A DNA stretch of 36,612 nucleotides from Verrucomicrobiales bacterium (GTDB lineage: Bacteria > Verrucomicrobiota > Verrucomicrobiia > Verrucomicrobiales > DEV007): positions 1-36,612 of the forward strand of contig JAGPCC010000011.1 in the NCBI GenBank assembly GCA_018058245.1, given 5' to 3'. The notes beneath the pieces were generated by a model. The model saw nothing but the letters and a program-made list of their open reading frames with translations. It was not told where the DNA came from and ran no database searches. The first letter of the stretch is position 1; each line of letters starts with the position of its first letter. The position numbers were made by a program, and so were the translations under genes. This document shows positions 6,455 to 18,244 of this stretch, in pieces.

Positions 6455-7993
6455 CTACTTCATCGGGATCGTATCGGTCGCTGCGCCAGGGGCAGGCTCG
6501 ATTCCGAGTAGTTTGCAGACCGTCGCATGGAAGGGGAGTTGACCCAGTTCGCCGAGTGGTCCGGTCACAGGTGAGTTGGGGTATCCCGAGAGAAACATCT
6601 GACCCGACATTCGAACGGACTCTTCCACCGGATAACCGAAACCACCGAAAAATCCCGGTCCCTCAGCGGGGTCAAAGACTGGTTCTGCCGCCTTCTGCTC
6701 CGCGAAGGCATATCCTGTTTTCAGCACGAGGACGCGGTCGCCGGTGCGCTCGGCATTACCGTAGGCCCACTCGGCGGGCAGGGCATCCTTCTTCAGCGTC
6801 CGGAAATAGATGCGCTTGCTCAGTTCGCTATCAAACTTGTCGGTGAAGATTTTTTTCTCGCCGTCGCTCGCCGGAAGGTCTTTGAAATACAAGTTCGCGA
6901 CAGCGTCGTGGGCGACAATGTCTGCATGGGCCATCATTTCCGGGCCGAGAAGATGGGCAATATTCACGTTTTTATCGAGTTCGGCGAGGCCGTGGTCCGT
7001 GGTGATAAAGATCACAAGATTGGCGTTCTTCGGAGCGAGGGTGGTCCACTCGGACTTGATGGTTTCAAAAAATTTGTTGAGCGAACTGTCCGTTGCCGCC
7101 ACTGCGGCGAAAGTCTCGGCAGCCCGAGGTCCGTGGAGGAGCCCTTGTCTTTCGATGTCATCGAGCCGCAGCATCACGAGTCGGAGTTTGTTGTCGGCAC
7201 TGCCTCCCGCAGGTGTGGAGGCGGCTGCCGCTCCCTCTGCGGGTGCTGGCGCTGCGGCTGGCGCTGCATCGGCTGCTCCCTCTGCCGCAGGTGCTGGGGT
7301 AGATCCTCCGGAGCTGGTCCGCCACTGCTCGAGCGCCGTAGTGAGCCGTGCCTCGTCAGTGGCTTCGGGATCGTAACTCGTGAGGAAAAATGCGGCCTTG
7401 TTGTCGCCGGTTTGATTTTGCGAAAGAGGCCAGTCGTGGACGAGGGTCTTGATGCCCTGTCGGGTCGCGGTAGTCCAGATCGGCTCGGCGAGGAGAAGGG
7501 CGGGGTCGGTCGGTTTGTCGATGATCTCACCCGAGGGGAGACGGATTTTGTCGGCAATGATGCCGTGTTTGTCTGGAGTGACCCCCGTTGCCATGGTGGT
7601 ATGCGAGGGATAGGTGAGACAGGGGAAGCTCGGTCTCATTTTGTTCGTGGCTCCACCGTCGGTGGTGAGTTTGTCGAAGAAGGGTGTCTCGCTCTTTTCA
7701 AGGTAGTCTCCGCGGAAACCGGGGATGCTGATCCAGACGACGACTGCCGGGCCGTCCCCGGAGTTTTGCACGACGGGGGCCGGTTCGTCGGTCTTATCCT
7801 CTTTCATGACGATCTCGGTCGAGGAATTTGCCCTCCGATATTCCTCCAGAACGCTCTCGGTCGATTTGTCACCTTGGAAAGCGACTCGTGAGAATTGGAG
7901 GTCTTCGCTGCCGCTCCAGAGAAAGAGCATCATGAGCGCGAATAGAAGAATCGCGACAAGCGAAATGAGAGAACTGGCGAGGGACCGGAACAT
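6455..7993 (-). CDS. Membrane-anchored type I phosphodiesterase/NPP-like protein with altered metal site
   Basis: A 512-residue protein with one N-terminal membrane anchor (about 8-26) and an extracytoplasmic domain of the nucleotide pyrophosphatase/phosphodiesterase (alkaline phosphatase superfamily) fold. The landmark is MRPSFPCLTYPSHTTMATG (119-137) followed by TPDKHGI. By analogy with autotaxin/ENPP2 the nucleophile Thr is T127 and the DHG pair is D333-H334. The remaining metal ligands appear replaced: P91 for Asp (ISIPGFR), E281 for Asp and L285 for His (ERQGLLHGP), and F452 for His (GGFGYP). An Ala/Pro/Gly-rich insert (about 229-266) interrupts the domain. The start at 7993 yields the anchor; an ATG at 8092 would overlap rsmB. 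It is 55 nt downstream of rsmB. The fold is clear; whether it is an enzyme is not. Confidence 0.87.
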   Translation of the reverse strand: MFRSLASSLISLVAILLFALMMLFLWSGSEDLQFSRVAFQGDKSTESVLEEYRRANSSTEIVMKEDKTDEPAPVVQNSGDGPAVVVWISIPGFRGDYLEKSETPFFDKLTTDGGATNKMRPSFPCLTYPSHTTMATGVTPDKHGIIADKIRLPSGEIIDKPTDPALLLAEPIWTTATRQGIKTLVHDWPLSQNQTGDNKAAFFLTSYDPEATDEARLTTALEQWRTSSGGSTPAPAAEGAADAAPAAAPAPAEGAAAASTPAGGSADNKLRLVMLRLDDIERQGLLHGPRAAETFAAVAATDSSLNKFFETIKSEWTTLAPKNANLVIFITTDHGLAELDKNVNIAHLLGPEMMAHADIVAHDAVANLYFKDLPASDGEKKIFTDKFDSELSKRIYFRTLKKDALPAEWAYGNAERTGDRVLVLKTGYAFAEQKAAEPVFDPAEGPGFFGGFGYPVEESVRMSGQMFLSGYPNSPVTGPLGELGQLPFHATVCKLLGIEPAPGAATDTIPMK

Positions 7994-8048: not shown

Positions 8049-9278
8049 TTACGCCCGCAATAACGCGGCAAAGGCTCCGTCGTAGCCATCACGCCAAGGC
8101 AGAGAGGAGACGAGGGACTCGATCTGGAGACCTGACGCCTCCACTACGGCCTCATTTTCCGCGCGGTCGATCGAGCAGGTGCTATAAACCAGACGCCCGC
8201 CGGGTTTCAGCAGTCTTGCGACAGATTTCAAGATGGCGGATTGATTTGCTGCCTGCCGTTCGATGTCGCGCTCCTGAATCCGCCAGCGCACATCTACGCG
8301 CCGCCTCATCACTCCCGAGTTCGAGCACGGGACGTCGAGGAGGATCGCATCGAAAGTGGGGAAGGTATGTCCGCCGTGATCGGGTGCGTTCCACTCCGCT
8401 TGCTGGACCTCGACATTTTCGACGGCGAGACGGTGGAAGTTTTCCCGCATTTGCTCGAGGCGGGGGACGGAATTGTCCGTGGCGACAAGTTGCCCCTGAT
8501 TTTCCATCATCGCAGCGAGGATCGCTGTCTTACCACCGGGAGCGGCGCAGGCATCGAGGACGGTCTCGCCGGGTTTCGGGTCGAGAAGTTGGCACGCGTG
8601 GAGCGTGCCGGGATCCTGCACATAGAGGAGACCTTCCCGGATCCACTCGGGATCGGGCGCTCCGCTGACGCGGAAAAATCCGGGGTATTCCGGGCCGATC
8701 AAGTAGGGTTCGGTCTCCGCCCGTACCCTGTTCAATGCCTCCTGGTCGCGGGCGAGTGGATTGATCCGTGCATAGACCGGAGCGGGTTGATTGTTCCACT
8801 CACAGAGCGCTTCGACGGTGGGAGTATCGTATTGCTTTAGCCAACGTTTGATGAGGAAATCCGGGTGGGAAAAACGGTCTTCGAGCGGCCAATTTTCGAT
8901 CTCGACGAGGAGAGCCGCTTTTTGCCGTTGGGCATTGCGAAGGATTGCATTGACGAGGGATCGCTCGTGTTTGCGGGCGAGATCGACGGTCTCGTTGACG
9001 GCAGCGTGCTCGGCGATCTGGGTTTTAAAGAGCTGATAAAGCCCGAGTCGCAGGAGGTTTTGCGTGAGCGGTTTGATGCTGCCTCGCCGGAAGCGGTCGA
9101 CTAGCTCATCGAGCAGGTAGAGATTCCGAATCGTGCCGTAAAGCAATTCCTGCGCGAGACCGCGATCCGGAGGGGAAAGCCGGAATTCGCGAGACAGTTC
9201 TTCGAGGATATCGGAGGCAAAACGGGAGGTGTCCTCCCAGGTGGTGAGGGCTTCGAGGGCGCAGCGGCGGGCGGACAT
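8049..9278 (-). CDS. rsmB: 16S rRNA (cytosine-967-C5)-methyltransferase RsmB
   Basis: This 409-residue protein matches RsmB/Fmu in order: an N-terminal NusB-like helical RNA-binding domain (about 1-130, with ELLYGTIRNLYLLDELV), then a class I SAM-dependent methyltransferase. Motif I is LDACAAPGGKT (241-251). The two catalytic cysteines of RNA m5C enzymes are C318 (LLDVPCSNSG, releases product) and C368 (YSTCSIDRAENE, attacks C6 of cytosine). It methylates C967 of 16S rRNA in E. coli. The length is near the usual 420-430. The 5' flank is nearly all octamer repeat (9291-9362), and no Shine-Dalgarno sequence is visible before the ATG. It follows the Bat operon and may be expressed by readthrough. 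Confidence 0.95.
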   Translation of the reverse strand: MSARRCALEALTTWEDTSRFASDILEELSREFRLSPPDRGLAQELLYGTIRNLYLLDELVDRFRRGSIKPLTQNLLRLGLYQLFKTQIAEHAAVNETVDLARKHERSLVNAILRNAQRQKAALLVEIENWPLEDRFSHPDFLIKRWLKQYDTPTVEALCEWNNQPAPVYARINPLARDQEALNRVRAETEPYLIGPEYPGFFRVSGAPDPEWIREGLLYVQDPGTLHACQLLDPKPGETVLDACAAPGGKTAILAAMMENQGQLVATDNSVPRLEQMRENFHRLAVENVEVQQAEWNAPDHGGHTFPTFDAILLDVPCSNSGVMRRRVDVRWRIQERDIERQAANQSAILKSVARLLKPGGRLVYSTCSIDRAENEAVVEASGLQIESLVSSLPWRDGYDGAFAALLRA

Positions 9279-9290
9279 GGGGGGGAGGAG

Positions 9291-9362
9291 AGCTTTTTAG
9301 CTTTTTAGCGGTTTAGCGGTTTAGCGGTTTAGCGGTTTAGCGGTTTAGCGGTTTAGCTTTTT
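9291..9362. repeat. Octanucleotide tandem array, nine units
   Basis: There are nine contiguous 8-bp units: two AGCTTTTT (9291-9306), six perfect AGCGGTTT (9307-9354) and one AGCTTTTT (9355-9362). The array covers the last codons and stop of the beta-propeller gene (TAA at 9347-9345) and most of the gap to rsmB. Because 8 is not a multiple of 3, three repeats read through all frames, and the array carries stops on both strands (TAA in AAACCGCT-reading frames, TAG on the plus strand). Perfect short units like this are expected to change copy number by slipped-strand replication. Confidence 0.95.
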
Positions 9363-10313
9363 GCGGAGGGTTTTGGCGGGGGTGCCATCGAGTACTAGGG
9401 TGTTGGCGAGGCTGTTTCCAAAGTTGGTGAAATCGTGAAAAGTCCAGACAACTTCTTTTTGGCGAGTGACTTCGATGATTTGGGGATTGTCTGGCCCGGC
9501 GTGACAATTGCCAAAACGAAGGTTGCCGTTCTTTAGCTCCTCGATCGTGGTGACCCAGGCGAGAGTGATCCCAGGGAGGTCATTTTGTTCCAATTTCCAG
9601 ACGATTTCTTTACTGGGGGTGACTTCGAGGATGCTGTGTCCATTGCCGGTGGTGATGAGGTAGTTGCCATTGGCGGCGATGATCGCGGAAAAACAGCGTC
9701 CACCGAAGGCCTCGGGACCGTGGCCGTTCGCAGGACTTTTCCCAAAAAGTGGAATGGGGAATTCCCATACCACTTTGCCGTCGGCATCATACTCTTTCAC
9801 GATCTGGTCTGCCTCGTGCGCGACGAGAAAGTGCCCGTTCGCAAGACGATGTACTTGCCGGGTGTCGGAGTGCGGATTTGGCGCCGAGACCTCGAGCGGT
9901 AGCTCTTTCACGATGGATTTTGCCGGAGTCACTTCGAGGATGCGGCCTGCACCGGACTCGACGATTAGGGTGTTGCCATTCTCTAAGCGCTCGAAGGAGT
10001 GGATTTCGACTTTGCCATCTTCCGCTCTACGGTTCTCTGTCTTTGCGTCGTATTCCCACACGGTCTTCCCGTCGAGATCGATCTCGACGACACGTGGCCA
10101 GCCGTCCTGGGTCAGGAAGTTCCCATTGGGAAGAAGAAAAAGACCGTGTACGGCACCGAGAGGATGATGGAAGAGAACTTTATTGTCCGCCGCCGGATCG
10201 ACGATGACGAGACCTTTCCCGGCCTCTGCACCGATGACAAGACGCTCCGCTGGCGCTGCCTGTAGTGGGGAAAGGAGGAACGGGAGCAGGAAAAGTAGAG
10301 GGACTGGTCTCAT
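9345..10313 (-). CDS. Secreted PQQ-like/arylsulfotransferase-like beta-propeller protein
   Basis: A 322-residue exported protein: signal peptide MRPVPLLFLLPFLLSPLQAA, then five to six repeats pairing a L-x-NGN-x-L strand (LPNGNFL, LENGNTL, LANGHFL, AANGNYL, LKNGNLR) with a V-E-x-(D/T)-x-x-x-(K)-x-VW strand (EIDLDGKTVWEY, EVTPAKSIVKEL, EYDADGKVVWEF, EVTPSKEIVWKL, EVTRQKEVVW). This is a beta-propeller resembling PQQ-like or arylsulfotransferase propellers; I see no catalytic signature. The ATG at 10313 overlaps the batE stop (ATGA, 10310-10313), implying translational coupling to the Bat operon. A longer frame extending to 10709 is rejected because it lacks a signal peptide and is antisense-composition arginine-rich. 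The C-terminus runs into the octamer array. The role is unknown. Confidence 0.88.
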   Translation of the reverse strand: MRPVPLLFLLPFLLSPLQAAPAERLVIGAEAGKGLVIVDPAADNKVLFHHPLGAVHGLFLLPNGNFLTQDGWPRVVEIDLDGKTVWEYDAKTENRRAEDGKVEIHSFERLENGNTLIVESGAGRILEVTPAKSIVKELPLEVSAPNPHSDTRQVHRLANGHFLVAHEADQIVKEYDADGKVVWEFPIPLFGKSPANGHGPEAFGGRCFSAIIAANGNYLITTGNGHSILEVTPSKEIVWKLEQNDLPGITLAWVTTIEELKNGNLRFGNCHAGPDNPQIIEVTRQKEVVWTFHDFTNFGNSLANTLVLDGTPAKTLRKKLNR

Positions 10314-11104
10314 GGAGTGTTGTGGGAAAGGGACGCAGAAAGGGGCCAAACCGGCCGAAGTGATTCGGACCGGATCCAGCCGCGGAGATCGCCGGGGATC
10401 TCGATGTAGGTCCAGCTGTCGGCGGCGCGGAGAATTCGGACTTCGGACCCAGGCGGGAGTTCGATGACGGATTTTGCGTCGGGGACTGGTGCGGTGAGAG
10501 CCTTCGCCTCGGGATCGGTGATTGTCGCGAAAACTTCCACTGCGATCCGTGTGTCTCGGTAGATTCCCACTCGGGAAAAGACCACGGCGGCCATGGTCGC
10601 GAGGATCGCGAGGGTGATGAGGCTCGAGCGATTCGGTCGCAAGCGCTTTACGAGCATTCCCAACGCGAGCGCAAGCAGGGCGATCCAGATCGCTAGGGAG
10701 ACGGCCCACGGAGCGAAGGTCGCGGGGAGGGCTCCGATAAAGCGCTCCAGACGAGTCCCGGAAAATTCGAGGAACGCGAGTTTGGATCGCAGAAAAGCGA
10801 GATTCTGCTGCACCTCCGGCATCGCGGGTTCCACGACGAGAGCGCGGCGCATCCAGAGGATTGCTTCCCCGAACTTGTCGAGCCGGTATTTGGCGGTGCC
10901 GAGATTGTAGAAGAGTTCGGCGGAGATATTTCCCTCTGCGGCGAGTTTCTCATAAGCGGAGGCCGCGTCGGCATATTTCCCGGCTTCGAAATCGGCATTT
11001 GCCGCCTCGAAGGCAGCATCTGGGGGAGGTGCCGCCCCGATCAGTGGGCTGACCGAAAGGAAGAGTGCGCAGAAAAGAACTTGAATGGGGAAGGGGACGT
11101 TCAT
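10310..11104 (-). CDS. batE: BatE-like TPR/SH3 membrane protein
   Basis: A 264-residue protein: signal peptide (MNVPFPIQVLFCALFLSVSP); two TPR units (about 26-100, with AAFEAANADFEAGKYADAA and ELFYNLGTAKYRLDKFGEA); two hydrophobic segments (about 125-150 and 160-175); and a bacterial SH3-like C-terminal domain (KSVIELPPGSEVRIL... WTYIEIPGDLRGWI). TPR plus SH3 in this position matches BatE of Bacteroidetes and spirochaete Bat (aerotolerance) operons, which are proposed to form an envelope complex with the VWA proteins BatA and BatB; the biochemistry is unsettled. The ATG at 11104 comes 1 nt after the batD stop (TGA-A-ATG), so translation is probably coupled. A longer in-frame start at 11236 lies inside batD and lacks an N-terminal signal. 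Confidence 0.85.
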   Translation of the reverse strand: MNVPFPIQVLFCALFLSVSPLIGAAPPPDAAFEAANADFEAGKYADAASAYEKLAAEGNISAELFYNLGTAKYRLDKFGEAILWMRRALVVEPAMPEVQQNLAFLRSKLAFLEFSGTRLERFIGALPATFAPWAVSLAIWIALLALALGMLVKRLRPNRSSLITLAILATMAAVVFSRVGIYRDTRIAVEVFATITDPEAKALTAPVPDAKSVIELPPGSEVRILRAADSWTYIEIPGDLRGWIRSESLRPVWPLSASLSHNTP

Positions 11105-11105
11105 T

Positions 11106-12830
11106 TCAGTGGCGCGGAAGTTTGTTGAGCATCGCCTCAAATTTACTGACTTCAGCAGCCGGAACGGGAACATCGTTTTCCGCCATGCCGCTATAAAGAA
11201 TCGTCGCGCATACTTCAGAGACCTGTGCGATGACATGGGTTACCTTCTCTGGAGCGTCAGGATGCTCCTTTTTCCAAAGGTCGAGGGCTTCGAGAACAGC
11301 GTGGAAAAATTCTTTTCGTGGGCTGCCGACCTGCGGGAGATTCTTGACGGCACGAGCGAAGGTGAGGTTTTGTGCCCGCCCGGCACGGTATTCGGCAAAT
11401 CGATTCCACCAGCGAACTAGTCCGAAACCAAGGATCGTGCAGAATGCGATCGAGAAAAGCACCTGAATGATGTAAAAAAATGTACCTGGAGCAGATCCTC
11501 CGGCATTGGCTACCCACCTCGATGGCCCGGTTCGGATGTGCAGGATGTCGTTGAACTCCGCAGTGGGAGGTTTTGCCGCTGGCAATTTTCCCGGAAAGCT
11601 GTCTTCTCCTGAAAATTGGATTGCAGTGCCTGCGTTTCTGGGGCGGTCATCGGTGAGCGTGATTGGGATCGGCTCGCTGCGTAGAGTGACGTATTTGTCC
11701 TTTTGCGGATCGAAATAGGTGAGCAGGAACGGGGGAATCACCGCAGTCTTTGTCTCGGGGATGACCACTTGGGAGAATTTGGCTTTCCCCGGATTGATGC
11801 CGTCCGAGTCGGAGGCGTCATCGAGTTCTTTGTTCGCCGGATAGGACTTCCAGATTCCCGTTTGCGGGATCTCAAATACCGGTGCGCTCATCGTGCGAAG
11901 ATTACCGATGCCGGTGATTTCAAATTCCATCGAGATCGGGTCACCGACGCCTACGCTGGTGGTGGACGCTTTGGTTGCCATCTCAAATGCGCCGACGCCC
12001 CCAGTGAAGCTGACCGGTGCACTGTCGGGGAGAGGTTTTACCTCCACATTGATCGAGTTTGTCGTCAGTTCCTGTGTGGTCTGACTCCTGAAAAAGGCGG
12101 ACAATCCGAATCCAGAATCAGTGTCCATGACTCGCAACCCGATCTGGGCAGGCCCGAGTAGATGGCTGCCAGGCTTGAGCGCAAAAAGGGTGGAGGGCAG
12201 GCTCGCGGAAGTGTAGAAGGAATTTCCCACCTCCGCCCCATCCGTTCGAATATCGCGGAACGACTCAAAGACAAAACTTTCGTTTTCGATCTTTGCATTG
12301 TTGACCCCAGCGATTGAATTCCGTCCTCTCACATAAGCGGTCAATGAAAAGGGGACGATCTCGTTCACGTAGAAGGATTCTTTGCTAAGCTCCAGTTTTC
12401 CGAATAATGGTTTTGTCGCATCGAGATCGGAATCCTTCTGGCTTTTTTCATAGATGGTCACTTCCACCTCGCGAGTGGGATAAGCGACTCCCTTCACGAG
12501 CACATCGAACGAGGGAATCTTGAAGGTTCCGGGAGTGTTCCCTCGAAAGCGGTAGTAGTAATTATTTTCAATCTTGCTGACTCCGTTCACCACGGTAATC
12601 GAGGACTGCGAACCAGAAAAGGAAATCTCCAATCCGGGAGCGTCGAGAGTCTGAGGGAGGGTCGCTTCTCCGTTCGTGACTTTCACGATGAACTGACTAA
12701 TCTCCCCGAGAAGGACACGATTGCTCAGCAAGTTGACGGTGACGGGAGCGCTCGCCGGGACCTGCTGCGCGATGAGCGGGCATATCCCGGTCGCAAAAAG
12801 AGCACAGAGAAAGGAAAGTCGGAGTGACAT
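11106..12830 (-). CDS. batD: BatD family protein
   Basis: A 574-residue protein with a signal peptide (MSLRLSFLCALFATGICPLIAQQ), a long periplasmic region of Ig-like beta domains (LNNRVLLGEISQF-like strand at about 33-48; NNYYYRFRGNTPGTFKIP at about 88-105), a single transmembrane helix near residues 450-475 (FFYIIQVLFSIAFCTILGFGLV) and a basic, helical cytoplasmic tail of about 100 residues. This layout is that of BatD (oxygen-tolerance family), which sits next to batA-batB-batC in other genomes. It is thought to be an envelope scaffold partner of the VWA proteins. The start is 8 nt after the batB-batC stop at 12839. No catalytic residues are expected or seen. Confidence 0.88.
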   Translation of the reverse strand: MSLRLSFLCALFATGICPLIAQQVPASAPVTVNLLSNRVLLGEISQFIVKVTNGEATLPQTLDAPGLEISFSGSQSSITVVNGVSKIENNYYYRFRGNTPGTFKIPSFDVLVKGVAYPTREVEVTIYEKSQKDSDLDATKPLFGKLELSKESFYVNEIVPFSLTAYVRGRNSIAGVNNAKIENESFVFESFRDIRTDGAEVGNSFYTSASLPSTLFALKPGSHLLGPAQIGLRVMDTDSGFGLSAFFRSQTTQELTTNSINVEVKPLPDSAPVSFTGGVGAFEMATKASTTSVGVGDPISMEFEITGIGNLRTMSAPVFEIPQTGIWKSYPANKELDDASDSDGINPGKAKFSQVVIPETKTAVIPPFLLTYFDPQKDKYVTLRSEPIPITLTDDRPRNAGTAIQFSGEDSFPGKLPAAKPPTAEFNDILHIRTGPSRWVANAGGSAPGTFFYIIQVLFSIAFCTILGFGLVRWWNRFAEYRAGRAQNLTFARAVKNLPQVGSPRKEFFHAVLEALDLWKKEHPDAPEKVTHVIAQVSEVCATILYSGMAENDVPVPAAEVSKFEAMLNKLPRH

Positions 12831-12838
12831 AAGGGAAA

Positions 12839-15115
12839 TTACCAGTTTTTGAACTTTTCGCCCTTGGCGGATTTGAGAATAGGGCGCACTTCGGTCTCGT
12901 CCGCGAGGGCATCTAGAAGCTGTCGTGCTTCTGTCGGAGAATATCCAGTTTCCGGGTTTTGTTTCATTTCCGCCGGACTCGGCTGTCCTGCTCCGATTTG
13001 ATTCTGCGGCTGCTCTTGGTTCGGGTTGGCCTCTAGCTCGCCATTCTTTGGTGCGTCGGGTTGCTCTGGCGGCTGTCCTTGGGAGGGCTGCTGCTGGTCC
13101 TTCTTCTGATCTCCCTTGCCCTCTTTCGGCTGGTCGGATGGTTGCTGATCGCCCTTCTCTTTTCCTTTTTCCTTGTCTTCTTGACCTTCCCCCGGTTTTG
13201 GTTCGGGCGGTGGTTGTTCGCCTTCTGGTTTGTCACTTTTCTCGCCGGGATCTTTCTCCTTCTGGTCTTTGGAATCCCCCTTCTGATCATCCTTGGGTTG
13301 ATCCTGGTCGTTCTTGTCCTGGTCTTTCTGATCGTCCTTTGGTTGATCCTGATCCTTCTTGTCCTGATCCTTCTTGTCCTGATCCTTCTGCTCGTCCTTT
13401 TTCTCGTCCTTTTTCTCGTCCTTTTTCTCGTCTTCTTTCTTCTCTTCTTCGTCTTTCTTCTTGTCTTCTTTCTTCTTGTCTTCTTTTTCGTCCTTCTTTT
13501 TCTGTTCTTCTTTTTGTTTTTCCTGCTCTTCCTTTTGTTTTTTCAGTTCGTCGAGACGCTTCTGAACCAGTTCTCGATTGTGCAAGGCACGGGCGTTTTC
13601 CGGATCTAGGGCGAGTGTCGAGTTGTAGTGTTCGATTGCATTTTCCCACTCACGAATCGTATTATCTACCACTTCTCCGGTCGCGGAGAGGGATTGCACC
13701 TGATCGGGGTCCGCTTTTTTGGCCGACCCAGTCAGACGGGTTTCCCCTTGTTTGAAAAGGGTGTTGCCGAGATTGTAATGCGCCTGGCTCTGCACCAGTT
13801 CCGATCCGTCGGCGAGGGCTTGCCCGTAGGCCTCCGAAGCGCGTTCAAAGTTTCCGAGACTGTAGGCGGCTGCCCCGATGCCCATCTGCAACCTTGCACG
13901 GTCCTTTTGGGTCATTCTCTCTGCGAGGTTTCCTTCGTAAAGTTCCAAGGCGGACTGGTAGTTTTTCTCTTGATAGGCTTTGTAGCCGTGTGTGAGTTGA
14001 TCCTTTGCGGAAACCCCGGCGGGAGCAAGGAACAAAACGACAAGTCCTGCCGTGAGACGCCGCACTGAGTCGGGATTTAAGGGACGTTTCGGACGTGGCT
14101 TCAGCCAGAAGAGGGGGATTACATAACCCAGGAGGAGGCATAGCAAAGCAATGCTGAGCGGCCACATGAAGCGCTCAACGGGACGGAGTCGGGTTTCACT
14201 TTCTTCTCGCGAAGTTGCAATGCCTCGACGGATCTGTTCCACTACGTGGGTGAGCGAAGCCTGACCTCCGAGATGGATGTAGGCTCCCCCTCCCGACGCG
14301 AGTGCCTGCATGGCTTTGGGGTCGAGACGAGTGCGAACGACCTGACCAGCTTCGTCTTTCACGAACACTCCCGGGATAGGATCGCCGTTGGCATCGGACT
14401 CGGGAATGATCGATCCCTCGGCCGTCCCGACGCCAACAGTCAAGATCGCCATTCCCATTTTTGCAGCATTGGCGCGGACTTTTTCGATTTCATCACTGCC
14501 TTCGAGGGCTTCGCCATCGGAGAAGAGGACCAGCGCGCTCTGCGGTAACTCCGCTTCTTTGAAGGTCTCCATCGCAAGTTCTGCCGCTGCGGAAAGATTT
14601 GTGCCTCCTCGGGGAATGATTTCGGTATCGAGCTGATCGATTGCTTCGAGGACGGCCTCATGATCGACTGTCAGTGGTGCCTGGACAAACGCGCGACCGG
14701 CGAAAGCGATGAGACCGACACGGTCATCGGGCAGGGAGAGAATGATGTCCTTGGCGGCGAGTTTTGCCCGCGTGAGCCGGTTCGGTGGCAGATCGTCAGA
14801 CATCATGCTGCGGGAAGTGTCGATCGCGAGGATGAGATTGCGAGCGTCGGTCTCGGTTTCTACCTCGTCAAAGCCTAGTTGCGGTCGGGCAAGAGCGGTG
14901 AGGATGGCAACAAAGGAAAGGGTTTGGAAACTAAAAACAATCCAGCGCTGGGTCCGACTGTTTCCGCTGATCAATCGAGCGGCGAGACGAGGGGATACGA
15001 GACCGGGGAGCTGCCTCGCTGTTTTCCGGTGCGCCCAGAATCGGAGTGCGACGAGGGGCAGCAGGAGAATCAAGCCCTGAAACCACTCTGGGTTCTGGAA
15101 GGTGAGGCCGTTCAT
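12839..15115 (-). CDS. batB: BatB-BatC fusion: VWA domain, membrane helices, TPR, K/D/E/Q-rich tail
   Basis: 758 residues. N-terminal membrane segments (about 12-25 and 58-75) precede a von Willebrand A domain with an intact MIDAS: D99-x-S101-x-S103 (AIDTSRSM), T172 (RGGTNLS) and D200 (FSDGEAL). Two hydrophobic stretches follow (about 317-338 and 353-370, the second ending AGVSA like an internal signal). A TPR region (about 372-520) and a charged low-complexity segment (about 524-660) of K, D, E and Q come next, then a P/Q/G-rich linker and a short conserved-looking end (about 705-758, YSPTEARQLLDALADE). BatB and BatC are separate genes in most operons, so this is a fusion. The start overlaps the batA stop by 4 nt (15112-15115). 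It is probably an inner-membrane protein with both domains outside the cytoplasm or on opposite sides; the topology is uncertain. Confidence 0.9.
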   Translation of the reverse strand: MNGLTFQNPEWFQGLILLLPLVALRFWAHRKTARQLPGLVSPRLAARLISGNSRTQRWIVFSFQTLSFVAILTALARPQLGFDEVETETDARNLILAIDTSRSMMSDDLPPNRLTRAKLAAKDIILSLPDDRVGLIAFAGRAFVQAPLTVDHEAVLEAIDQLDTEIIPRGGTNLSAAAELAMETFKEAELPQSALVLFSDGEALEGSDEIEKVRANAAKMGMAILTVGVGTAEGSIIPESDANGDPIPGVFVKDEAGQVVRTRLDPKAMQALASGGGAYIHLGGQASLTHVVEQIRRGIATSREESETRLRPVERFMWPLSIALLCLLLGYVIPLFWLKPRPKRPLNPDSVRRLTAGLVVLFLAPAGVSAKDQLTHGYKAYQEKNYQSALELYEGNLAERMTQKDRARLQMGIGAAAYSLGNFERASEAYGQALADGSELVQSQAHYNLGNTLFKQGETRLTGSAKKADPDQVQSLSATGEVVDNTIREWENAIEHYNSTLALDPENARALHNRELVQKRLDELKKQKEEQEKQKEEQKKKDEKEDKKKEDKKKDEEEKKEDEKKDEKKDEKKDEQKDQDKKDQDKKDQDQPKDDQKDQDKNDQDQPKDDQKGDSKDQKEKDPGEKSDKPEGEQPPPEPKPGEGQEDKEKGKEKGDQQPSDQPKEGKGDQKKDQQQPSQGQPPEQPDAPKNGELEANPNQEQPQNQIGAGQPSPAEMKQNPETGYSPTEARQLLDALADETEVRPILKSAKGEKFKNW
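13351..13438. repeat. In-frame minisatellite in the BatC-like tail
   Basis: On the plus strand, two perfect copies of the 15-mer GATCCTTCTTGTCCT (13351-13380) and a partial third are followed by three perfect 12-mers CTCGTCCTTTTT (13391-13426) and a diverged fourth (13427-13438). Both periods are multiples of three, so copy-number change would lengthen or shorten the K/D/E/Q tail without a frameshift. A related, longer 40-50 bp periodicity (Q-P-K-D-D-Q units) continues to about 13260. Confidence 0.85.
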
Positions 15116-16122
15116 GGGTATCGTTTCCAGAAAGTCTCGTTTCCGATGAGAGTCAATATCCCGAATCCAAGACCCGCAATCGCAAACCAGTGAAAGAGTT
15201 CGGCACTCTCGACCCGTGTTTGTTTCTTGATTTCGGTTTTTTCCATTTTGTCAATTTGCTCGAAGATCCGTTCGAGGCCGGAGGTGTCTTGCGCACGAAA
15301 GTACTCGCCGTCTGCGATACGGGCAATCTCCTTCAGCGTTCCTTCATCAAACTCTTGCGAGAGATTCTGAACTCCCGCAGGGGTCTGGACGGTATAATTG
15401 CCGTAGGTGCCCACGGCAACGGTGTAGACCCGGATGTTGAGTGTCTTGGCGAGTCGGGCGGCCTCGATCGGAGAAAGGTTTCCCGCGTTGTTTACTCCGT
15501 CTGTGAGCAGCACGATGACCTTGCTTTTGGATGTCCGTTTGTCGAGTCGTTTCGCCGCCGCTGCGATGGCAGATCCGATCGCAGTCCCGTCTTCGACCAT
15601 GCCGATCTGAACTCGCCCGAGGCCCTGCGGCCCCTCCAACCAAGCTTTTGAGAGGGTGAGGGGACTCGCGAGATAAGGACGGCCTGCAAAGGCGAGAATC
15701 CCGATCCGGTCTGAAGTCCTGCCTTTGATGAAATCCCGAGTTACCTTTTTAGCGGCCTGGAGTCGATTGGCACGACTTCCTTCGATTCGAAAATCCTCGA
15801 TCTGCATCGAACGAGAGACATCAATCGCGAGGATCAATTCTACGCCGCTCTCGGAAATCTGTTCGGTGCGATTGATCCATTGTGGCCGCGTCAGGGCTAG
15901 AATAACGCAAAACATGGATAGAAAAATCGAGGCGAGTCTGAATCCTCCCGCCCGTCCTCGTGCGATCGGACCGAGGCGGTTCAAAATATGCAGCGACGAA
16001 AATACGACCGCTCCTTGATTCCCTGAGCGGCTCTTCAGGAGCGCGAGCAAGGGAAGCAAGAGGAGGAGACCGATCACCCAGGGATAGGCTAGTTGAAAAG
16101 TCGTTTCGGCAAAGACAATCAT
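15112..16122 (-). CDS. batA: BatA family VWA protein
   Basis: A 336-residue integral membrane protein: helices at about 13-29 and 60-78, a VWA domain (about 94-290) with an intact MIDAS (D101-x-S103-x-S105 in AIDVSRSM; T in EDGTAIGSA; D in LLTDGVNNAG), and a C-terminal helix (about 310-330, FHWFAIAGLGFGILTLIG). The sequence ISESGVELILAIDVSRSM plus VEDGTAIG is characteristic of BatA. The membrane-anchored VWA domain is expected to bind partners through a metal ion. In most genomes moxR (AAA+) and a DUF58 gene lie directly upstream; here the upstream gene is fabH, 48 nt away. The 4-nt overlap with batB-batC implies coupling. Confidence 0.92.
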   Translation of the reverse strand: MIVFAETTFQLAYPWVIGLLLLLPLLALLKSRSGNQGAVVFSSLHILNRLGPIARGRAGGFRLASIFLSMFCVILALTRPQWINRTEQISESGVELILAIDVSRSMQIEDFRIEGSRANRLQAAKKVTRDFIKGRTSDRIGILAFAGRPYLASPLTLSKAWLEGPQGLGRVQIGMVEDGTAIGSAIAAAAKRLDKRTSKSKVIVLLTDGVNNAGNLSPIEAARLAKTLNIRVYTVAVGTYGNYTVQTPAGVQNLSQEFDEGTLKEIARIADGEYFRAQDTSGLERIFEQIDKMEKTEIKKQTRVESAELFHWFAIAGLGFGILTLIGNETFWKRYP

Positions 16123-16170
16123 AGGATTACGGAGGGTAAGACACCGTAAGATGTTCTTTGCTCAAGCTTC

Positions 16171-17187
16171 CTACCATTCGATGACTGCACTGGCCCAGGT
16201 CAGTCCGGCACCAAAGGCGACAAGTAAGATACGGTCGCCGGGTTTGATTCGCCCCTGGCGATTTGCTTCATCCAGTGCGATCGCGACGGCTGCAGCAGAA
16301 GTGTTACCGTACTTATCGAGGTTGATAAAAACGTCTTCGCGGCTGAAATCGAGCCGCTCCACGATGGCGTCGATAATCCGAAGATTGGCCTGATGAGGAA
16401 TGAGGAGATTGATATCCTGGATCGTAAGTCCCGCCGCTGCTATGGCATTGTTACTCGCTCGGCGCATCGCATTGACGGCATGTTTGAAAACCTCGCGACC
16501 TTGCATCGCGAGAGTCGCTGATTTTTCTGGAACGACTCCGGGAATCACCGGGCAGGCGGATCCACCGCCGGGAATATTGAGCAATTCCGCTTGGGCTCCG
16601 TCGGTCCCGAGGCAGGACGAAAGAATCCTTCCCCCACCATTGGAGGAGGGAACCAATACTGCTGCACCTGCTCCGTCACCAAAAAGCACACACGTATTTC
16701 GATCGTTCCAGTCGACAAAGGCGCTTAGTTTTTCCGCTCCGATGATAAGCGCATTTTTGAAAGCTCCGGCCCCGACAGCGTGGCGGGCAATTTCGAGAGC
16801 ATAGAGGAATCCCGAACAGGCCGCTGAGACATCAAACGCGACCGCTTTGAGAGAACCGATCTGCTGCTGCACGTAGCAAGCGGTAGCCGGGGTCAGCGTA
16901 TCGGGAGTAATTGTCGCGACCACGATGAGCTCGATGTCCAAGGCGTCTATCCCAGCCTGTTCGAGAGCGCGGCGTGCCGCTTCACTGGCAATGTGGCTCG
17001 TGAATTCATCCTCACGGGCAATCCGGCGCTCTCGGATTCCCGTCCTCGAAGTGATCCACTCATCCGACGTATCCACGGTCCGTTCGAGATCATGATTTGT
17101 CATGATCCGTTCCGGCAGATAGCTCCCCGTTCCGGCAATACGGACGGGAAGCGGGAAGGTCTGGGAGGGGGAACCGGATTCAGTCAT
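16171..17187 (-). CDS. fabH: Beta-ketoacyl-ACP synthase III (FabH)
   Basis: 338 residues, slightly longer than E. coli FabH (317) because of an N-terminal extension of about 14. It condenses an acyl-CoA primer (usually acetyl-CoA) with malonyl-ACP to start fatty-acid synthesis. The catalytic triad is complete: C124 (DVSAACSGFLYAL), H265 (IPHQANLRI) and N295 (YGNTSAAA). The thiolase-fold landmarks TSDEWITSRTGIRERR (40-55) and GDGAGAAVL (170-178) are also present. It lies 43 nt downstream of plsX in the classical rpmF-plsX-fabH order. No Shine-Dalgarno sequence is visible. Primer preference (straight or branched) cannot be read from this. Confidence 0.97.
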   Translation of the reverse strand: MTESGSPSQTFPLPVRIAGTGSYLPERIMTNHDLERTVDTSDEWITSRTGIRERRIAREDEFTSHIASEAARRALEQAGIDALDIELIVVATITPDTLTPATACYVQQQIGSLKAVAFDVSAACSGFLYALEIARHAVGAGAFKNALIIGAEKLSAFVDWNDRNTCVLFGDGAGAAVLVPSSNGGGRILSSCLGTDGAQAELLNIPGGGSACPVIPGVVPEKSATLAMQGREVFKHAVNAMRRASNNAIAAAGLTIQDINLLIPHQANLRIIDAIVERLDFSREDVFINLDKYGNTSAAAVAIALDEANRQGRIKPGDRILLVAFGAGLTWASAVIEW

Positions 17188-17230
17188 TTTGTCGGTGAAA
17201 TGTGCAACTTGAACCGTCTTCGCACCCGAC

Positions 17231-18244
17231 TCAACGAAAAAGGTCGGAATATCGGCTCATCTCCTCTTCAATGTGAGGATTGACATGATGTTTGATCGAC
17301 TCGGCGGCTACGCGGATGGCATTACTGATGGCTCTTGCCGAACTGGAACCGTGGCCGATGATGCAGACTCCATTGACGCCGAGAAGGGGGCTGCCCCCGT
17401 AGGTTTCGTAGCTCCCTCGCTCCTTGGTCGCCTTGAAGGCATCCTTGGCGATGAGCGCCCCAAGCTGACGAATCGGTGTGGCTTTGATGTCCTGTTTCAG
17501 CCATTTGAACATTACTTTTGCAGTCGCTTCGCAGGATTTTAGGACGACATTCCCGACAAATCCATCGCAGACAACGACATCGAGAGGTGTTTCGAAAAGG
17601 TCGTGTCCCTCGATGTTCCCTCGAAAGTTGAGATCCGTGGACTTCAATAGTTCGAAGACTTCCCTCGTGAAATCGGTTCCCTTTGAGTCCTCTTCTCCGA
17701 CGGACATCAATCCGACGACGGGATTCTTCTTCCCCTGCACGTGGCGAGCATAGACGCTGCCCATGATCGCATAACCGAGGAGATGAGAAGCTTTTGCATC
17801 GACGTTCGCGCCCGCATCCATAATGTTGCATGGTCCATGCTCATTGGGGAGCGCGGAGGCGATACCAGATCGTTCGACACCGGGAATATTTCGCAATTTG
17901 ATCGTCGAGGCAGCAACGACGGCTCCGGTATTCCCGGCACTTACGATCGCATCACAATCACCTCTCTTCACGAGATCCACCGCGACACTAATGGAAGAAT
18001 TTTTCTTCTGTCGGACGGACTTCACCGCAGAATCGTGCATCGTAACGATCTCGGAAGCATGCACGATCTCGATTTTGCCGTGGGCGTAGGACAGATTCTG
18101 GAGTTGCTCCTTGATGATAGATTCGTCACCTACCAAAAAGAGCTTCTTGAGATCGCCGCCAAACGCCTTGAGAGCCTCAACGGCCCCCATCATGATCGCT
18201 TCGGGAGCCTTGTCGCCTCCCATGACATCCAGAGCAATTCTCAT
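17231..18244 (-). CDS. plsX: Phosphate acyltransferase PlsX
   Basis: 337 residues, the usual length. It converts acyl-ACP and phosphate to acyl-phosphate, the donor for PlsY in the first step of phospholipid synthesis; it is a peripheral membrane enzyme. Family landmarks are MRIALDVMGGDKAPEA at the N-terminus, AIVSAGNTGAVVAAS (about 100-115), DAGANVDAKASHL (about 142-154), FVGNVVLKSCEA (about 230-241), and YGGSPLLGVNGVCIIGHG (about 282-299). It is flanked upstream by rpmF, from which a terminator separates it, and downstream by fabH. The ATG at 18244 is the only start that leaves MRIALDVMGG at the N-terminus. Coding bias and length give no sign of decay. Confidence 0.97.
   Translation of the reverse strand: MRIALDVMGGDKAPEAIMMGAVEALKAFGGDLKKLFLVGDESIIKEQLQNLSYAHGKIEIVHASEIVTMHDSAVKSVRQKKNSSISVAVDLVKRGDCDAIVSAGNTGAVVAASTIKLRNIPGVERSGIASALPNEHGPCNIMDAGANVDAKASHLLGYAIMGSVYARHVQGKKNPVVGLMSVGEEDSKGTDFTREVFELLKSTDLNFRGNIEGHDLFETPLDVVVCDGFVGNVVLKSCEATAKVMFKWLKQDIKATPIRQLGALIAKDAFKATKERGSYETYGGSPLLGVNGVCIIGHGSSSARAISNAIRVAAESIKHHVNPHIEEEMSRYSDLFR

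Follow-up and report, generated by a model that had tools for sequence, protein, structure and literature searches.

The window, i.e., the whole stretch of 36,612 nucleotides of a Verrucomicrobiales contig that was analysed, carries the gene of a predicted NPP-fold membrane protein on its minus strand. The gene, here called the pseudo-NPP gene, was read from an ATG at position 7993 to a stop codon at 6457-6455. The features of the locus are as follows.

6455..7993, minus strand: pseudo-NPP gene, 512 aa; an MFRS or MFRT start lies at the equivalent site in most orthologues
7910..7990, minus strand: N-terminal membrane helix, residues 2-28, a probable type II anchor (model and Kyte-Doolittle)
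6458..7753, minus strand: NPP-fold domain, about residues 81-512 (Pfam PF01663 and VIA-align)
7193..7315, minus strand: A/P/G-rich linker insert, about residues 227-267, variable in length, pLDDT below 50 at 231-264
8049..9278, minus strand: rsmB-like gene (Pfam PF01189/PF01029) directly upstream of the pseudo-NPP gene, given as context only

In the Pfam search, PF01663 was recognized at residues 85-435 (E 2.1e-47; 162.9 bits, the cut-off being 23), while in NCBIfam P0001 gave only matches far below the cut-off. The predicted model of the window protein, built from 31 sequences (mean pLDDT 80.8, pTM 0.76), was aligned with Xanthomonas NPP 7n1s over 369 residues (VIA-align; Z 41.8, rmsd 2.6 A). 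The closest solved relatives were Xanthomonas NPP and the ENPPs, both by sequence and by fold. The profile and the domain-wide fold both place the protein in the NPP fold family. Because the PF01663 match is far above the cut-off, annotation by this profile alone would label the protein a phosphodiesterase.

In Kyte-Doolittle analysis, hydropathy reached its maximum of 2.65 at residue 7, and nothing beyond residue 80 rose above 0.91. The N-terminus ahead of the helix is short and contains one Arg. Because the hydrophobic helix follows such an N-terminus, a type II anchor is probable, and the protein would be a type II inner-membrane protein with its NPP domain in the periplasm. An earlier note on this DNA had read the product as an NPP-fold membrane protein, which the profile, the fold and the single N-terminal helix bear out.

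In mouse ENPP1, Zn1 is bound by Asp358, His362 and His517, and Zn2 by Asp200, Asp405 and His406 (PMC6200793). The two zinc ions and a phosphate-binding Asn were described as absolutely conserved across the NPP structures compared in PMC6052110. The corresponding positions were assigned by phmmer against Xanthomonas NPP (Xac NPP, 2gsn) and by MAFFT with 17 canonical Verrucomicrobiota NPPs. Clade counts refer to 40 full-length members (window + 30 + 9) and are compared with these 17 canonical relatives; partial loci (L022, L023, L031, L072, L079, L081, and L082), repeats (L116-L119) and many genus loci duplicating counted ones were left out. The partial loci L022, L023, and L031 were consistent with the clade at the positions they cover. 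The positions, all on the minus strand, are listed below.

7721..7723, minus strand: P91, replaces a metal ligand Asp (phmmer and MAFFT); Asp in 0/40 of the clade
7613..7615, minus strand: Thr127, nucleophile position, kept; T in 34/40, otherwise H3 D2 E1
7550..7552, minus strand: D148, replaces the phosphate-binding Asn (Asn role, PMC6052110); N in 17/17 canonical, clade D36 N4
7151..7153, minus strand: E281, replaces a metal ligand Asp; Asp in 0/40
7139..7141, minus strand: L285, replaces a metal ligand His; His in 2/40 (L106 and L107)
6992..6997, minus strand: D333-H334, kept metal-ligand pair; 39/40 and 40/40
6638..6640, minus strand: F452, replaces a metal ligand His; His in 0/40, F18 Y17 G3 W2

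In the phmmer alignment, ISIDGLR of Xac NPP lay on ISIPGFR (Asp to P91), LTFPNH on LTYPSH (T127 kept), VDEAGHDHGP on IERQGLLHGP (Asp to E281 and His to L285), DHG on DHG (D333 and H334 kept), and SHGY on GFGY (His to F452). The MAFFT mapping was identical, and all 17 canonical NPPs read D T D H D H H. Since the sequence match with ENPP2 spans residues 83-191 only, beside a whole-fold match, the mapping of residues relies on Xac NPP together with the homologues from Verrucomicrobiota. Compared with Xanthomonas NPP (2gsn, 7n1s) and vertebrate ENPP1-7, the window protein has the whole-domain predicted fold, the Thr position (T127) and the DHG motif in common, but it keeps two of the six zinc ligands and has replacements at the other four and at the phosphate-binding Asn. 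On this map, Zn1 is wholly lost, and Zn2 has lost one of its three listed ligands, with the other two and Thr remaining. The earlier note had claimed the same four replacements, the keeping of T127 and D333-H334, and the full loss of one zinc site with weakening of the other; these points were reproduced in both alignments. D148, a change absent from that account, aligns with an Asn 21 residues past the nucleophile, which matches the spacing in NPP3 (T206, N227).

Misalignment of an ordinary dizinc NPP would give the same picture, and the strong overall NPP similarity speaks for it. It is very improbable, because phmmer and three MAFFT alignments agree on the positions and the shifted positions are without a conserved acidic or His residue. 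As candidates for shifted ligands, columns 278-282, 286-287, 448-452, and 456-458 were searched and rejected, holding no conserved substitute. Asp at 278 (17/40), Asp at 279 (25/40) and His at 287 (13/40) were too variable, and the nearest substitute, Glu or Asp at 458 in 37/40, lies six residues beyond the lost His.

The changes are shared by the clade. Asp91, Asp281, and His452 were found in no clade member, His285 in two and Asn148 in four, whereas each was present in 17/17 canonical relatives, as were Thr127, Asp333, and His334; all seven catalytic positions were intact in every canonical sequence. Such clade-wide ligand loss argues against chance in the window sequence. The replacements at 91, 285, 452, and 148 are themselves conserved. 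Position 91 is P, A, S, T or R throughout (Pro in 29/40), position 285 is Leu, Met or Ile in 35/40, position 452 is Phe or Tyr in 35/40, and Zn1 is incomplete in 40/40. At 46 positions, 16 or all 17 canonical rows carry the same residue. Of these, the majority residue of the clade was changed at 5 of the 8 metal, nucleophile or phosphate positions versus 6 of the 38 others (Fisher one-sided p 0.013), where the 8 positions were picked from known NPP chemistry after the alignment was viewed. Basic residues also mark the clade, i.e., R290 (39/40), R420, K425, and R461 (each 40/40), and R276 (33/40, with Lys in 3), and few or no canonical rows carry a basic residue there. K341 is invariant in the clade, yet Lys or Arg already stands there in 6/17 canonical rows. 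From nearness in sequence, R276, R290, and R461 may line the old cleft.

The A/P/G-rich insert had been brought forward in the earlier note as interrupting the domain. The insert is real, but the argument falls away because it is a variable linker, found in long form only in part of the genus. The stretch ranges from 5 to 59 residues across the clade, with 5-7 in about half of the members and 5 in all nine of the 9-member subset. The insert was dropped as a functional element on this range of lengths, and it tells nothing on catalysis.

Of the 33 genomes of the genus, 29 carry the pseudo-NPP, counting the genome of the window; the four without an orthologue (G003, G009, G018, and G027) are 53-79% complete. 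When 288 genomes were sampled from the order, 47 of them gave a match at E<=1e-20. Five of these are intact NPPs (G027, G037, G050, G079, and G152), and 42 are of the pseudo-NPP type, all in one family and in seven genera (g1, g15, g16, g17, g20, g21, and g26). A wider genome scan gave 34 related loci, Verrucomicrobiota records throughout, and no relative that would indicate a virus origin was confirmed in the viral_contigs scan.

The nearest intact relatives in the tree are canonical Verrucomicrobiota NPPs (L115/L038 in G027, L140-L147, L152, and L153), which keep the seven catalytic positions, whereas the pseudo-NPP clade does not. L038 is 32% identical to the window protein. In contrast to the pseudo-NPP, the canonical NPPs are scattered: among 387 genomes of the phylum, 12 gave a match to L038 at E<=1e-35, and three of these 12 carry members of a more distant intact group. 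G027 is the sole genus genome with an intact sister-group NPP, and no pseudo-NPP was found there; this may reflect a replacement, a gap in the MAG or a misbinned contig. L115 (G027:C428) has a ThiF protein among its neighbours, and the others gave no Pfam match.

A tree was built by a quick method with no bootstrap, minus the seven catalytic columns, and with a program warning of long branches meeting; in it, a single branch (SH-aLRT 99) set the 40 members apart; 11 intact Verrucomicrobiota NPPs were their neighbours (support 94), and six more intact ones lay outside. One loss of the ligands before the family diversified would be the simplest reading of this tree. Pairwise dN/dS (NG86, a single gene run) was 0.03-0.23 in 37 of 43 pairs of orthologues more than 72% identical, the other six being without usable dS and dS exceeding 1 in many. 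These values are far below 1 and thus indicate purifying selection. One clade in seven genera, clade-wide ligand loss and purifying selection together point to an old, retained pseudo-NPP.

A gene in decay would also show lost catalytic residues and a low-complexity insert. Decay is hardly credible here, since the genus and order genome scans gave no stop inside the matched stretches, dN/dS is far below 1 in all computable pairs, and most genus genomes hold the gene. The claim in the earlier note of an otherwise intact gene agrees with this. In a scan with another query, four rows showed one stop each, the match apparently running beyond the gene end there.

The protein might still be an enzyme in which T127, D333, and H334 hold one metal, as in LtaS, EptA and the sulfatases, single-metal members of the superfamily, and which carries out slower or different chemistry, e.g., phosphoryl or group transfer. 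These three residues are kept in 34, 39, and 40 of the 40 members. Thr127 is lost in L073, L070, L104, and L110-L112, always to Asp, Glu or His, and L073 combines D127 with P333 as though the carboxylate had moved. The first-strand Glu/Asp position of LtaS and EptA we take to be position 91 of the window protein. In LtaS and EptA, this residue surrounds one metal together with Thr, Asp, and His (PMC7576196). Precedent comes from YejM, which was at first said to be without the typical catalytic residues (PMC7018646) and was later reported as an active, Mg-dependent phosphatase (PMC7576196). Against a one-metal enzyme, the fourth ligand, Asp or Glu at 91, is absent from 40/40, the phosphate-binding Asn is Asp in 36/40, and the nucleophile has been lost in four lineages by the tree. 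Such an enzyme is therefore considered unlikely. L110-L112 (genus g16) are the most divergent members, in which the nucleophile position is His and position 452 is Gly, and L110 and L112 show an acidic stretch ahead of the domain.

The best explanation, to which we give a probability of roughly 70%, is a pseudo-NPP that purifying selection has maintained in a non-catalytic role at the envelope. The dizinc centre would have been lost once, in the ancestor of the copies of this Verrucomicrobiota family. The type II single-pass protein, with its NPP-fold domain in the periplasm, would then have been retained for a non-catalytic job, most likely to bind a ligand or partner protein, unhydrolysed, within or near the former active-site cleft. 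Such a role is probable because the ligands are lost and many related Verrucomicrobia keep the protein in this state. The earlier note had proposed a pseudo-phosphodiesterase with a retained non-catalytic role, and the incomplete Zn1, the single branch, purifying selection and the presence in most genus genomes all favour it, with inactivity being predicted. Conservation of D333, H334, and T127 counts against this explanation, as drift would be expected in a wholly dead site, and so does the fact that all six changes at 127 gave potential metal binders. Loss of residues alone is also no proof of inactivity, because NPP3 T206A crystals soaked with substrate showed the product AMP at room temperature (PMC6052110); the YejM precedent is a second reason for caution here.

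A more specific and rather doubtful form of this reading is an NPP turned envelope sensor or regulator, in which Arg/Lys and aromatic residues replace the zinc centre, bind an anionic envelope ligand without cleaving it and signal through the helix. The ligand may be a phospholipid, an LPS-like lipid or a nucleotide. If so, the protein would be the NPP-side counterpart of PbgA/YejM. By its description, PbgA/YejM/LapC of enterobacteria likewise has a periplasmic domain that is anchored in the membrane, belongs to the alkaline phosphatase superfamily and is without the usual catalytic residues (PMC7018646), and it is described as acting on the LapB/FtsH control of LPS synthesis. The two differ in that PbgA has a sulfatase-like domain behind five membrane helices (PMC7018646), whereas the window protein has an NPP-type domain behind one, i.e., residues 2-28.

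No NPP-type or Verrucomicrobia pseudoenzyme was recognized by title or start of abstract among the open-licence literature matches listed. The fold family and the type of change are both known; here the change is kept across a bacterial family. With intact relatives, His285 keepers (L106 and L107) and members without Thr127, the clade forms a graded series, a natural experiment in which the path from a dizinc enzyme to something else can be followed.

In the gene neighbourhood, 18 of the 34 related loci have a same-strand rsmB immediately upstream of the pseudo-NPP gene, and bat-type genes lie further upstream in 15. No rsmB was found around L104-L112 (about 3-5 kb of flank per side). Neighbours elsewhere vary, i.e., an Ank-YkuD L,D-transpeptidase, an M19 dipeptidase or a CHASE2 cyclase. 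The downstream GDSL and DUF7133 genes of the window had no match in the 34 loci, and a weak DUF7133 match (25%) was seen near the gene in L107. No partner, ligand or family-wide conserved neighbourhood was found among the loci compared. Function by operon association was rejected, given the missing rsmB in L104-L112 and the varying neighbours, and no context-based function is claimed.

Window positions 8049-18244 hold a same-strand run of plsX, fabH, two VWA/BatA-type genes, batD, a TPR gene and rsmB. Its VWA-to-rsmB part reaches the pseudo-NPP gene in 15/34 related loci, with fabH at the edge of four. No Rfam families at the gathering threshold and no tRNAs were detected in the window. Antisense ORFs of 285-575 aa overlap the gene in the window (6908-7891, plus strand) and in L049, L051, L065, L074, and L108. 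They probably follow from the base composition and could mislead gene callers.

EboF is described as a separate PF01663 lineage, and some eukaryotic EboF homologues were reported without targeting sequences (PMC5133447), in contrast to the membrane-anchored window protein. The best PF01663 match in the window's own genome was P0002 (L156:4548-5966, G000:C59; E 9.8e-55). By eye, P0002 likewise deviates from the usual metal ligands, with NIVGLTP where the first Asp would stand, LDYNLQ in place of the Zn1 Asp/His pair and SEYG in place of the Asp-His pair; SHG is kept. Its gene follows molybdopterin dehydrogenase-like genes, and P0002 is possibly EboF-like.
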